The notes under the pieces are model-generated. The model was not told the DNA's origin and did no database searches. It worked only from the letters and a program-made list of their open reading frames with translations. Below, in pieces: positions 2,367 through 50,630 of a stretch of DNA of 64,000 nt; the first letter of the stretch is position 1; each line of letters begins with the position of its first letter. The stretch is taken from NCBI RefSeq assembly GCF_013402815.2, contig NZ_CP058601.1:3906001-3970000 (forward strand), given 5' to 3'. The DNA comes from Natrinema halophilum. Lineage in GTDB: Archaea > Halobacteriota > Halobacteria > Halobacteriales > Natrialbaceae. Position numbers and translations under genes: made by a program.

Positions 2367-2994
2367 GGCTGGCCTACGGTGGGTTCGAACGTAAGGATTA
2401 CTCTCTGTCGGAATCGACGCTGGCGACTCGCGGCGTCGGCGATGCTGCAGGGTCAGTGTACGACACAGCACGTTTTCACGGCTGGGCCTCCGAACCGATC
2501 GTCCGTCGCTGCTCGCGGCTTCTCGCCGATGACGCCGCGTCCGGACTCGATTATCGAGACGATCGGGAGCGTTGCGGTCGCGAAGGGGACGAGCATGACC
2601 GCCCCGAACTCGAGGTCGGTGAGCCCGACCAGTTCCGGGTCAGTCGATCCGACGAGTGTCATCGCCCGGTCCATCAGATCGAGCGCGTCGGTCCCAGAAT
2701 CCCGAGGGTCGGACGGGCAAACTCCCCGTACTGAGCGCGATTGAGACGGTGCGAGCGATCCTCGACGGATGCGTCTTTTGGCTCGACCCGCCTGGCGGAC
2801 GTCCAGACGGTCAGGACCGGCCCGACGATGCGCGTGATTACGAGAGCGAGTGGGGCAATCACAGTCGCACCGTGCGTTTCGCGTTACAATTCACCGTTTG
2901 AAACGACGATAGATCGATACGAATCGTTCGCGAAGGCAACTCGTGCGAGGCTGTCAGCGACGCCCAGCGCCCTGAAAATCGGTTGGCAGCCTGC
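2367..2994. other. Long gap holding a possible broken gene
   Basis: About 630 nt between the SRPBCC gene and the FKBP gene. The only coding-like material is the pair of overlapping minus-strand frames at 2453-2862, described separately. Nothing else is recognisable. Confidence 0.4.
2453..2862 (-). pseudogene. Possible frameshifted small membrane protein gene (or two overlapping small genes)
   Basis: Two minus-strand frames, 2674-2862 (GTG start) and 2453-2674, meet at a TGATG overlap. Frame one encodes a hydrophobic segment (MIAPLALVITRIVGPVLTVW) followed by a polar region. Frame two encodes a second membrane segment (LEFGAVMLVPFATATLPIVS). Frame two remains coding-like upstream of its ATG, reading GTDALDLMDRAM. 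That suggests one two-helix membrane protein broken by a frameshift between about 2674 and 2730. Two translationally coupled small genes remain possible. The family is not recognised. Confidence 0.4.
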
Positions 2995-3516
2995 TCAGGT
3001 GGTCCCGACGCCGTCAGCTGGATCCACCTCGTGGCCTGTAGTGACGGCGTGTGTTTCCAGGACCTTGAGTTCGAATTCGATGCGTTCACCGGCGAGTTCG
3101 TGATTGAAGTCGATCGTCACCGAGTCCTCGGAAACGTCGGTTATCCAGCCGACGGCACCGGACTGACTCTGGACAAGTTCGTCGACCTCGGCGATCGTAT
3201 CGCTACGAGCCTCGATCTCGTCTCGAGGGACCGTTACGATTGCGTTTTCGTCAACGGTTCCGTAGGCCGCTTCGGGTTCGAGGACGAACGTTTTCGTTTC
3301 GCCCTCAGCCATGTCCTGAATAGCCTCGTCGATTCCCGGGAGGACGTGGCCCTCCCCAACGCGGAACTCGAGGGGCTTGAAATCGCGGTGATCATGATAG
3401 ACACCTTCTTCAAGTGCGACGTCGACGTCGGTCGTCTCGAACACCTCTCCCGATTCCGGGCCGTCAACCAGACGACCGGTCAGGTGAACGATTACGATCT
3501 GGCTTGGTCCGATCAT
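2995..3516 (-). CDS. FKBP-type peptidyl-prolyl cis-trans isomerase (SlyD-like)
   Basis: A 173-residue prolyl isomerase/chaperone. It has the FKBP core split by a large flap insert, as in SlyD and archaeal long FKBPs: VIVHLTGRLVDG near the start, then VLPGIDEAIQDMAEGETKTF, AAYG, the insert, and a closing strand ending FELKVLETH. The ATG at 3516 lies 2 nt after the stop of the molybdoenzyme gene, with gaggag as a likely ribosome site, so the two are co-transcribed. It has no signal peptide and is probably cytoplasmic. A folding role for the operon's other products is inference. Confidence 0.85.
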   Translation of the reverse strand: MIGPSQIVIVHLTGRLVDGPESGEVFETTDVDVALEEGVYHDHRDFKPLEFRVGEGHVLPGIDEAIQDMAEGETKTFVLEPEAAYGTVDENAIVTVPRDEIEARSDTIAEVDELVQSQSGAVGWITDVSEDSVTIDFNHELAGERIEFELKVLETHAVTTGHEVDPADGVGTT

Positions 3517-20787: not shown

Positions 20788-20862
20788 TAGCGGGAGGTAG
20801 ATTTGAACTACCGATCTGCGGGTTATGAGCCCGCCGGAATCTCCTGGCTATCCCATCCCGCT
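20788..20862 (-). tRNA. Initiator tRNA-Met (CAT)
   Basis: A 75-nt cloverleaf on the minus strand. The acceptor stem AGCGGGA pairs with TCCCGCT. The anticodon stem GCGGG/CCCGC encloses CTCATAA, and the T arm is GGTAGTTCAAATCTACC. The three G:C pairs next to the anticodon loop and the A1-U72 pair mark it as the archaeal initiator. The CCA end is not encoded. Confidence 0.95.
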
Positions 20863-21083
20863 ACCATCTCGTAACCGAGTGTGCTAGTTAAGGGTTATGA
20901 TTCGACTGCCGTATGCGGATTTCCGTTTTGGGGCCACGGAAAGGCCTCAGGTCCGGGCAGGTCGTGAATCGTACGTGCTCCGGTGAGCTGAAAAATGACG
21001 GCAGTGGCTCAGTCGAAGTGGCGTCGAAGCCGCGACAAAACGAACGAATTCGCTCGCGACGCCGACGCTGATTTCGACCTCGG

Positions 21084-21090
21084 TATTAAT
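21084..21090 (+). promoter_or_regulatory. TATA-like element before the ThDP enzyme gene
   Basis: The element tattaat lies about 28 nt before ATG 21115. This supports that start rather than the upstream ATG at 20995 that leaves the frame open. Confidence 0.5.
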
Positions 21091-21114
21091 GCGAGCGATG
21101 TGGACGAAACGACT

Positions 21115-22698
21115 ATGCAATCCGCATCCGACCTTCTCGTCGCCTGTCTCGAAGCCGAGAGCGTCGACCGCGTGTTCGGCGTTCCTGGTGAGGAAATCGA
21201 GGATGTCCTGTTTTCCCTGCGCGACTCGGAGATTCGTTTCGTTCCGACCCGCCACGAACAGGGAGCGGCGTTCATGGCCGACGTCCACGGCCGACTGACC
21301 GGCGAAGCGGGCGTCTGTTGCTCGACGCTCGGTCCCGGTGCGACGAACCTCATGACCGGCGTCGCCGACGCCCAACTCGACAAGAGCCCGGTCGTCGCGA
21401 TCACCGGTCAGGGCGGTCGCGAACGCTTACACAAGGAGAGTCACCAGGCGCTTGACGTCGTCGACATCTTCGAGCCGATCGTGGCGTGGAACACTCAGAT
21501 CACCGATTCCGAAATCGTCTCGGAGTCGGTGCGCAAGGCGTTCAAACTCGCCGAGTACGAGAAACCGGGAGCCACCCATCTCGAATTCCCCGAGGACGTC
21601 GCCGCCGAGACGGTCGACGCCGCTCCCATCGAAACTCGCGACCCAGTACGCCGCCCGGACCCCGACGACGAATCCGCCGCTCGCGCCGCCCAATTGATCG
21701 AGTCGGCCGAGCGGCCGATCGTTCTCGCGGGCAACGGCGCCGTTCGGACTCGCACGTCGGAGACCATTCGGACTATCGTCGACCGCGTGGACATTCCCGT
21801 CGTCGAGACGTATATGGGGAAGGGAGCGATCTCGGACCGCGAGCAAGCCTCGCTGATGACGCTCGACTCCGGCCCGGAGGAAGAGGCTGCGCGGGCGATC
21901 GAGCGGGCGGATTGCGTCGTCGCGGTCGGCTACGACATCGCCGAACACGATCCGGAAGGGTGGAACCCCACCCTCGAGAAGACCATCGTTCACGTCGACT
22001 ACGAACCAGCGGAGGTCTATCGTCACTACAACCCCGACGTCGAAATCGTCGCCGACGTCGGTGCGGCGCTCACCGCAATCGACGATCGGCTCGCGGACGA
22101 GGCGTGTTCGCTGTGGTGTGACGATCTGCACGATCGCTTGCTCGAGGCGGTGACGGAGCTTCCGGCCGAGGACGATCCGATTACCGTCAGGAACGCCCTG
22201 CCGCTGCTGCGCGAAGCCATGGACGACTCGGACGTCCTCGTTTCGGACGTGGGAAGTCATAAAATGGCCATCGCCCAGACGTTCCCGACGTACGAGCCGA
22301 ACACGTGCGTGATTTCGAACGGCCTGGCGAGTATGGGAATTGCCGTTCCAGGTGCTCTCGCGGCAGACCTGGCCATCGATGCGAACGTCGTCGCCGCCAC
22401 CGGCGACGGCGGCTTCATGATGAATGCGGCCGAACTCGAGACCGCACGCAGGTTGGACTGCGGTTTCACCACAGTCGTGTTCAACGACGACGACTACGGA
22501 TTGATCTCCGAAAAGCAGACCGAACACCGCGGCGAACACACGGGCACCGAGCTGACCAATCCCGATCTCGTGTCGTTCGCGGAAAGCTTCGGAATCGAGG
22601 CCTATCGGCCTGGAGACTGGGGCGCCCTCGAAGCGGCATTCGAGGGGGCGATACCGTCGCACGAACCGGCGTTGATCGAAGTCCGGCTCGAGGGATAG
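21115..22698 (+). CDS. Acetolactate-synthase-like thiamine diphosphate enzyme
   Basis: A 527-residue ThDP-dependent enzyme of the acetohydroxyacid synthase/benzoylformate decarboxylase superfamily. Visible landmarks are the catalytic Glu in TRHEQGAAFMADVHGR, TLGPGATNLMTGVADAQLD, and the ThDP/Mg2+ motif GDGGFMMNAAELETA ending at VVFNDDDYG. The regulatory ilvN partner is absent, and related stand-alone proteins have diverse substrates, so a role in valine/isoleucine synthesis is not certain. A TATA-like element 28 nt upstream supports the start chosen. Confidence 0.82.
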   Translation: MQSASDLLVACLEAESVDRVFGVPGEEIEDVLFSLRDSEIRFVPTRHEQGAAFMADVHGRLTGEAGVCCSTLGPGATNLMTGVADAQLDKSPVVAITGQGGRERLHKESHQALDVVDIFEPIVAWNTQITDSEIVSESVRKAFKLAEYEKPGATHLEFPEDVAAETVDAAPIETRDPVRRPDPDDESAARAAQLIESAERPIVLAGNGAVRTRTSETIRTIVDRVDIPVVETYMGKGAISDREQASLMTLDSGPEEEAARAIERADCVVAVGYDIAEHDPEGWNPTLEKTIVHVDYEPAEVYRHYNPDVEIVADVGAALTAIDDRLADEACSLWCDDLHDRLLEAVTELPAEDDPITVRNALPLLREAMDDSDVLVSDVGSHKMAIAQTFPTYEPNTCVISNGLASMGIAVPGALAADLAIDANVVAATGDGGFMMNAAELETARRLDCGFTTVVFNDDDYGLISEKQTEHRGEHTGTELTNPDLVSFAESFGIEAYRPGDWGALEAAFEGAIPSHEPALIEVRLEG

Positions 22699-22738
22699 CC
22701 CTTCGATCGCGGAAAACGGCAGGAGGCGGTCGTCTCAT

Positions 22739-22836
22739 AGGGAGTAGCGTCGGCGTTCCTCGATTCGGTTGGTCCGAATCGACACACCGTGACCAGCCGG
22801 AGTGGCTTTGACCTCCGGCTGGCTACGCTACTCCCT
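22739..22836. other. Nested inverted repeats forming a potential three-way junction
   Basis: A perfect 12-bp outer stem joins 22739-22750 (agggagtagcgt) to 22825-22836. Inside it are a 9-bp hairpin, 22760-22768 with 22774-22782 (loop ttggt), and a 10-bp hairpin, 22793-22802 with 22813-22822 (10-nt loop). All three stems are perfect Watson-Crick. The element lies between two convergent genes, ending 1 nt from the decarboxylase stop. It could be a bidirectional terminator, a structured RNA or a small palindromic mobile element. Confidence 0.8.
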
Positions 22837-22837
22837 C

Positions 22838-23821
22838 TCAGAAGAGGTGATCGTCTTCGTCGAGCAGACGCGCGGGACCGCCGACGTTCCAGGTCGTCGT
22901 CGAAACGCCGCAGTCGGAGATTTCCGCTTCGACTTCCTCCGCGTATTCGTCGGTGGTGTTGACGTAGACGCTGGCGCCGGTGTCGGTCGAGAAGTAGACC
23001 GGAATGTCTTCCTCCTCGCGGAGCTCGCGCACCCGGTTGAAGATCGCGAGGGTGGCCGGCTGCCAGTAGACCCAGCCCGACGGGCCGGTCATCGTGGTTG
23101 CCGCAAGCGACAGCGAGTCGTGTTCGGCGAGTTCGAACGCGCGTTCGAAGTCGTCGGATCGCAACGCATCGCGCATCTCGGCGATCTGGTCGTGAATGTG
23201 GGCGTTTCGCGCCTGGAACATGTGGCTGTCGGCGGCCTCGCGGTGGGCGTCTTCGGTTTCCTTGTGGTAGGGAACGAGACCGACGATGATCTTCATATTC
23301 TCGTGCAGGTTCGACGGAATTCGTTGGGAGCGACAGTCCTCGTCGTTCAACCCGGTGTGAAGCTGAGAGAATGCGCCGGTGACAGCACGCGCCGCAGAGG
23401 CCGATCCGACGCGAGCGATCGCCGATATTTCCTGCTTCGAGGCGTCGAGTTCGGCCGCTTCCGCTAGTGCCATCGCCGCGGCCGCGAATCCCGACGAAGA
23501 CGAGCCGAGGCCGACGTTCGACGGAAAACTGTTCTCGCTCTCGAGGCGGAGTGGATACACTGTGTGGGCGGCGTCGGACATGGAGCGCGCTTTCTCGACG
23601 ACGGCCTCCACCCGTTCGTACGCGCGCCCTTCGAGCTCTTCGCCATCGACGACGTACGTATCGTCCTCGTAGTCCATCGAGAACTCGACGGTCGTCCTCG
23701 TATGGCTGGGTGCCGTACAGACGCTGATGCTGTCGTGATACGGAAACCGCTCTATTTCGTCGCGCATTCCGTGATATTTGACTAGCCCCTGGATGGGGTG
23801 GGCCATGGCCGTGGCTTTCAT
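22838..23821 (-). CDS. mvaD: Phosphomevalonate decarboxylase (GHMP family)
   Basis: A 327-residue enzyme related to diphosphomevalonate decarboxylase. Haloarchaea use such proteins to decarboxylate mevalonate phosphate to isopentenyl phosphate for lipid side chains. The sequence begins MKATAMAHPIQGLVKYHGMR, has the GHMP ATP loop NVGLGSSSSGFAAAAMA, and SAARAVTGAFSQLH. The start is set at 23821 because 12 upstream residues look non-coding. Substrate assignment, phosphate rather than diphosphate, rests on known haloarchaeal family members. Confidence 0.85.
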   Translation of the reverse strand: MKATAMAHPIQGLVKYHGMRDEIERFPYHDSISVCTAPSHTRTTVEFSMDYEDDTYVVDGEELEGRAYERVEAVVEKARSMSDAAHTVYPLRLESENSFPSNVGLGSSSSGFAAAAMALAEAAELDASKQEISAIARVGSASAARAVTGAFSQLHTGLNDEDCRSQRIPSNLHENMKIIVGLVPYHKETEDAHREAADSHMFQARNAHIHDQIAEMRDALRSDDFERAFELAEHDSLSLAATTMTGPSGWVYWQPATLAIFNRVRELREEEDIPVYFSTDTGASVYVNTTDEYAEEVEAEISDCGVSTTTWNVGGPARLLDEDDHLF

Positions 23822-24007
23822 ACCCAGATAGGTGGATGATGACCGCTTAAAGTTCACGGCATCTCATCAACAGTTCCGCCGCGATGGCGCAACCCGTGAG
23901 GAAGCGTGACGACCGGACGTGGGTTCCCGGACAGACGGGGCGGCTCGAGGCTGAATCCAGCCAAATTGATCGCACAGTCCGTACCGCGAACGAGCCTATC
24001 GCTTCGT

Positions 24008-50557: not shown

Positions 50558-50630
50558 AGTCCCGTGGTGTAGTGGCCAATCATCTGAGCCTTTGGAGCTC
50601 AGGACGGCAGTTCGAATCTGCCCGGGACTA
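50558..50630 (+). tRNA. tRNA-Gln (TTG)
   Basis: A 73-nt cloverleaf. AGTCCCG pairs with CGGGACT, the anticodon arm is TGAGC-CTTTGGA-GCTCA with anticodon TTG, and the T arm is GGCAGTTCGAATCTGCC. The discriminator is A and CCA is not encoded. Decodes CAA. Confidence 0.95.

Follow-up and report, generated by a model that had tools for sequence, protein, structure and literature searches.

An inverted-repeat element between convergent genes of Natrinema halophilum is very probably a copy of a gene-less miniature transposon family

The window analysed here is a stretch of 64,000 nucleotides of Natrinema halophilum DNA (contig NZ_CP058601.1, positions 3,906,001 to 3,970,000), in which a gene for a thiamine-diphosphate (ThDP) enzyme and mvaD, encoding diphosphomevalonate decarboxylase, converge on a short gap. 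The original prediction placed perfect nested stems of 12, 9 and 10 bp at 22739-22836 in this gap. The same sequence and the same pairing were recovered in our analysis, and the identities of both convergent neighbours were borne out (Table 1). As RNA, the 98-nt stretch folds strongly on either strand (z of -7.0 on the plus and -9.4 on the minus strand), and none of 200 dinucleotide shuffles folded equally well on either of them. No Rfam 15 model matched the locus at its gathering score; elsewhere in the window Rfam recognises just two tRNA genes, at 20788-20862 on the minus and 50558-50630 on the plus strand. Between 22400 and 23200 we found neither a T-run nor a terminator-like site, and no GC-rich stem followed by a T-run as in an intrinsic terminator. 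Promoter-like sites of the types scanned were also absent near the element, the scan model being one of bacterial promoters and the host an archaeon.

Table 1. Features at the mvaD locus, in window coordinates, and sites of the related families B and C, in the coordinates of the named loci
Feature	Position	Strand	Remarks
ThDP enzyme gene	20995-22698	+	
Left target-duplication copy, TCA, 3 bp	22735..22737	.	
Family A miniature transposon, T-AGGGAGTAGCGT...ACGCTACTCCCT-C	22738..22837	+	100 nt; covariance-model match 86.2 bits; boundaries from aligned flanks
Left inverted end TAGGGAGTAGCGT	22738..22750	+	two departures from the family end, both mirrored on the opposite arm
Outer stem arms	22739-22750 / 22825-22836		12/12 paired
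Inner hairpin 1, 9 bp	22760-22768 / 22774-22782 (span 22760..22782)		9/9 paired; strong in the window copy, not a family trait
Inner hairpin 2, 10 bp	22793-22802 / 22813-22822 (span 22793..22822)		10/10 paired; strong in the window copy, not a family trait
Right inverted end	22825..22837	-	12/13 complementary to the left end
Right target-duplication copy, TCA	22838..22840	-	mvaD stop codon TGA
mvaD	22838-23857	-	diphosphomevalonate decarboxylase
Family B dense sites	L069:1454-1539; L174:6567-6652; G079 stretches L286-L325		
Family C copies	G079:C1:268943-269050 (in L299); L320-L321 region of G079b (offset 298370-298477)		

A search with the 98 nt, the check for further copies in the same genome that had been proposed, revealed a second full-length copy 2.4 Mb distant and 78% identical, in which an outer-stem pair is altered on both sides; these two are the only clear copies in this genome. 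Using blastn against 125 genomes of the same taxonomic family, four further copies were obtained, all from Natronosalvus amylolyticus. A covariance model (R1) built from these six copies detected the family, which we call family A, in at least 37 of the 125 genomes (E<=0.1) and at least 27 times in the richest of them, a few matches being the second strand of a copy already counted. The matches taken into the later counts are the subset for which loci or sequence were retrieved. An exact 18-letter pattern, comprising the duplication described below and the adjoining end, occurred in 60 stretches of the genome collection, with a second end within about 110 nt in 51 of them. Its hosts include Natrarchaeobius, Natrialba, Natronosalvus, Natronorubrum, Salinadaptatus and Halalkalirubrum, and further Haloferax larsenii, Haloferax elongans, Halegenticoccus, Haloarcula salina, Halorussus ruber and Halapricum. 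Seven of the 60 loci (L214, L228, L241, L242, L244, L248 and L265), six with bacterial titles and one from Thermoplasmatota, none of them with a partner end, were omitted from the duplication count. The family is thus multicopy, with a unit of about 96-101 nt, which is below the size needed to encode a transposase. In one genome (G079) the copies share a mean identity of 97%, as against 74.5% between genomes, a similarity that would fit a recent burst.

The limits of the unit were read from an alignment of the flanks of 115 oriented copies, one of which was dropped afterwards for its length. The family ends read TAGGGATTATCGT...ACGATAATCCCTA and the consensus unit is T-AGGGATTATCGT...ACGATAATCCCT-A, standing in the context C-TSA-unit-TSA-G or, more rarely, C-AST-unit-AST-G (S = C or G). 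Left and right 3-mers match exactly in 70 of the 115 copies, against a mean of 28.6 and a maximum of 42 on random re-pairing (1000 trials). They likewise match in 47/53 copies of the named-collection set, in which one 3-mer belonged to the search pattern and the other was free, and in 98 of the 147 unique copies overall; we take the 49 copies without an identical 3-mer to be decayed or imprecise. The terminal inverted repeats are 13 bp long, and the two arms differ by one mismatch or none in 84/144 copies. Beyond the duplication the flanks pair no better than shuffles, and insertion into palindromes in general was rejected on this ground. Boundaries of the IS200/IS605 type (TTCAT/TCAG) were dropped once the 115 aligned flanks showed a 3-bp duplication; so was a likeness to the REP-type GTAG motif, since this tetramer forms part of the terminal repeat and the target is duplicated. 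At the mvaD locus the stems of 22739-22836 stand as predicted, but the limits of the unit do not: the element takes in one more base at either end (22738-22837), and a TCA adjoins it left and right.

Sites empty of the element were sought by local blastn with both flanks of all 147 copies against all the DNA retrieved. The copy L046 has an empty counterpart in Natronosalvus hydrolyticus (L263; 96% and 87% identity), and L032, which interrupts a gene whose product presumably resembles an ADP-ribosylglycohydrolase, has two (L207 and L307). In each of these the left and right flanks have exactly 3 nt in common, and the empty sites of both copies keep exactly one TSA. A further case with this 3-nt overlap, L069 against L321, is derived from a repeat. 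Turning to the mvaD locus, the mvaD query is present in 29/29 genomes of the genus, our own included, and the ThDP gene adjoins it in our own genome and in two congeners. Both of these congeners lack the element and carry a single TCA; their gaps between the two genes measure 43 and 57 nt as against 139 nt here, where 36 nt would be expected after subtracting the element and one duplication. The congener gaps are too diverged to fix the exact junction, and insertion at this locus is a simpler reading than loss.

Family A is rarely found in coding sequence: only 2 of the 147 copies lie inside coding-like frames as called by a frame finder that is a rough heuristic, and L032 does interrupt a gene. 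As at mvaD, the duplication is itself a stop codon in 30 copies, which abut the gene end directly, and the distance from element to stop codon has a spike at 0 (30/116 sides). On the Natronosalvus amylolyticus plasmid NZ_CP101160.1, for example, an annotated chemotaxis gene ends at 256955 and the element starts at 256956. Of 122 TGA-type duplications, 57 close an open frame of 100 codons or more, against 67/488 in the other frames. This excess of stop codons persists against bare TSA sites (p 1.7e-11) but is gone once the CTSAG target and the exclusion of coding sequence are allowed for (stop to intergenic 30:115, or 30/145, against 43:243, or 43/286, for background CTSAG outside coding frames; p=0.17). 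Special targeting of stop codons was therefore rejected, and the abutment is treated as a by-product.

We then considered which part of the structure belongs to the family. Identical paired changes in the two arms number 41 in 138 copies (9 of the 147, with more than five changes in an arm, were omitted), against 11.4 in shuffles with a maximum of 21 among 2000, a figure that is inflated by related copies. Since the alignments hold such related copies, the shuffle controls are not to be read as probabilities. The two arms thus covary. The inner region, trimmed of 14 nt at each end and analysed in 144 copies (3 of the 147 left out), has a mean fold z of 0.0 on one strand and 0.1 on the other, which is shuffle level. 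No other of the 144 deviates as far as the window copy (z of -4.9 and -7.2); the other copy in its own genome ranks fourth (z of -2.5). The 12-bp outer stem is thus the pair of inverted ends of a transposon, and having perfect inner hairpins is peculiar to the lineage of the window copy. The suggestion of selection for structure is accordingly compatible with the paired changes in the terminal arms, but does not hold for the two inner hairpins as a feature of the family. Mobility does not explain why these hairpins are unusually strong in the window copy. If one arm were repaired from the other during replication, inner hairpins would result and the ends would be coupled as well, and we infer that the hairpins arose by such local correction of palindromes, or by drift, and have no regulatory role; a local role for them, or local selection, may nevertheless exist.

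Since its copies are dispersed, carry 3-bp duplications and have empty sites, family A is best regarded as a mobile element, and 22738-22837 is very probably one copy of a non-autonomous miniature inverted-repeat transposon whose enzyme would be supplied in trans. Of the three options offered originally, these data support the palindromic mobile element with terminal repeats of 12 bp. That the hairpin was selected as a bidirectional terminator for the two convergent genes would agree with its position and with its strong fold on both strands; it is very unlikely, given that no terminator-like site or T-run accompanies it, that structure in the family is confined to the terminal arms, that family A occurs in either orientation (75:70 on the fetched strands, 2 undecided) and also inside a gene, and that two congeners keep the same convergent pair without it. 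A structured RNA with one or both mRNAs as its target would account for the strong fold of the window copy, inner region included, and for the paired changes in the arms. The absence of an Rfam match, the lack of conserved inner structure across the 144 copies, the near-even orientations and the scattered positions with target duplications make this extremely unlikely.

A third alternative is that the element is PATE- or REP-like and is moved as a single-stranded hairpin by a Y1 transposase of the IS200/IS605 or RAYT type. The element is small and palindromic, and PATEs have been described in haloarchaea (PMC3119063); like family A, they are gene-less. In the passages of that paper dealing with them, PATEs lack terminal inverted repeats and target duplication, both of which family A has, and the 3-bp duplication argues against membership in the REP/REPIN elements mobilised by RAYT (Y1) enzymes. 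We consider this alternative quite unlikely. In the relevant passages of three other papers, PMC10544981 deals with a PATE, PMC11431627 only mentions HqIRS55, and in PMC3733652 archaea appear, for the words looked up, in the reference list alone.

Under the miniature-transposon reading, an enzyme acting in trans would recognise the inverted ends of 13-15 bp (TAGGGATTATCGT...) and would cut a CTSAG-like target with a stagger of 3 nt, so that insertion duplicates TSA. In the window the target would have been the CTCAG that holds the stop codon of mvaD. Since the duplicated TCA falls in that stop codon, mvaD would be left intact and the element would come to lie in the short gap between the convergent genes. 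The fixed 3-bp duplication together with inverted ends suggests that the enzyme is of the DDE type.

An autonomous partner bearing the ends of family A was not found among the eight unpaired end matches retrieved; four of these are short copies that have diverged or been interrupted (two enclosing a second short element), two are truncated relatives and two, from genome G095, could not be assigned. Neither did a long element with these ends appear at 30 scanned PF01609 loci (out of 78 matches in 4 genomes) or in 1.2 Mb made up of three 400-kb stretches of two element-rich genomes. A pair of ends 3.6 kb apart in L164 was rejected as a long element, the ends belonging to two separate 80-bp elements. 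The PIF-type domain PF13359 was absent from 6/6 element-rich genomes, and a search for PF13586 in 6 genomes gave one weak match.

These results bear on how family A relates to systems already described. IS5/PIF-Harbinger-type elements make a 3-bp TNA duplication within a CTNAG-like target; their ends differ from those of family A, and the PIF-type domain is absent from the six element-rich genomes searched. Family A resembles a MITE in being short, gene-less and multicopy, with inverted ends and a target duplication of fixed length (3 bp), and differs in that a partner sharing its ends was not met in the unpaired ends, the 30 PF01609 loci and the 1.2 Mb. The closest parallels are the small mobile repeats (SMRs) of Haloquadratum walsbyi, namely SMR-A (HqIRS42/43/55) and SMR-B (HqIRS40/41), for which the relevant passages of PMC3119063 report inverted ends, a length of 80-110 bp, the lack of a transposon partner and of a target duplication, a preference of SMR-A for near-terminal palindromes of IS605/PATE, and a mobilisation that is called enigmatic. 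Family A shares with them the size range of 80-110 bp, the absence of genes, tens of copies, a haloarchaeal host range and inverted ends unrelated to a known transposon, the last for family A as far as the unpaired ends, the 30 PF01609 loci and the 1.2 Mb go. It is set apart by its clear 3-bp duplications, a difference from the SMRs as described in those passages, and may differ from SMR-A in its targets too, its flanks showing no general palindrome. Because the SMRs are said to make no target duplication, we do not file family A among them; it works like a MITE whose partner has not been found. A search of the open-licence literature, end sequences included, returned no description of family A.

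Two further families came to light in the same genomes. Family B, first revealed by nested copies, is a palindromic element of about 80 bp with ends TACGGTTTACTGT, a TSA duplication and an internal sequence unlike that of A. The flanking 3-mers are identical in 46/60 candidates from the 1.2 Mb, and in G079 there are 79 exact ends in 800 kb as against 3 for the reversed motif. It occurs also on plasmids of Natrinema, Natronorubrum, Haloterrigena, Natrialba and Halomicrobium. On the Halomicrobium mukohataei plasmid NZ_CP039376.1 a perfect family B palindrome (L161:2999-3085) overlaps the end of a CDS annotated as a hypothetical protein (2849-3049), and this gene call may include the element. Family C, found by scanning, is a palindromic element of 108 bp with ends TACTGYCGGACAGAAC and a TSA duplication; its end was matched in 45 of the 125 genomes, and the reversed control gave no match. 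Family B is nested in family A at L129:3330-3560 and L131:3530-3740, and family A in family B at L072:1535-1740. Ends of family B lie within 60 nt of 18/147 family A copies, against 3/147 at 500-560 nt.

Despite their different interiors, the three families agree in having a 5'-TA end, C-TSA-G as the target and a duplication of 3 bp. It is conceivable, and we propose it tentatively, that A (about 98 bp, ends TAGGGATTATCG), B and C form a haloarchaeal superfamily that is moved by one undescribed trans-acting system with no known IS link, which could also explain the mobility of the Haloquadratum SMRs. The striking structure beside mvaD is explained as mobile DNA, which counsels caution before hairpins at the gene ends of haloarchaea are called terminators or RNAs. 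With a defined end, target and duplication for gene-less elements that occur across the class, the search for their mobiliser becomes concrete.
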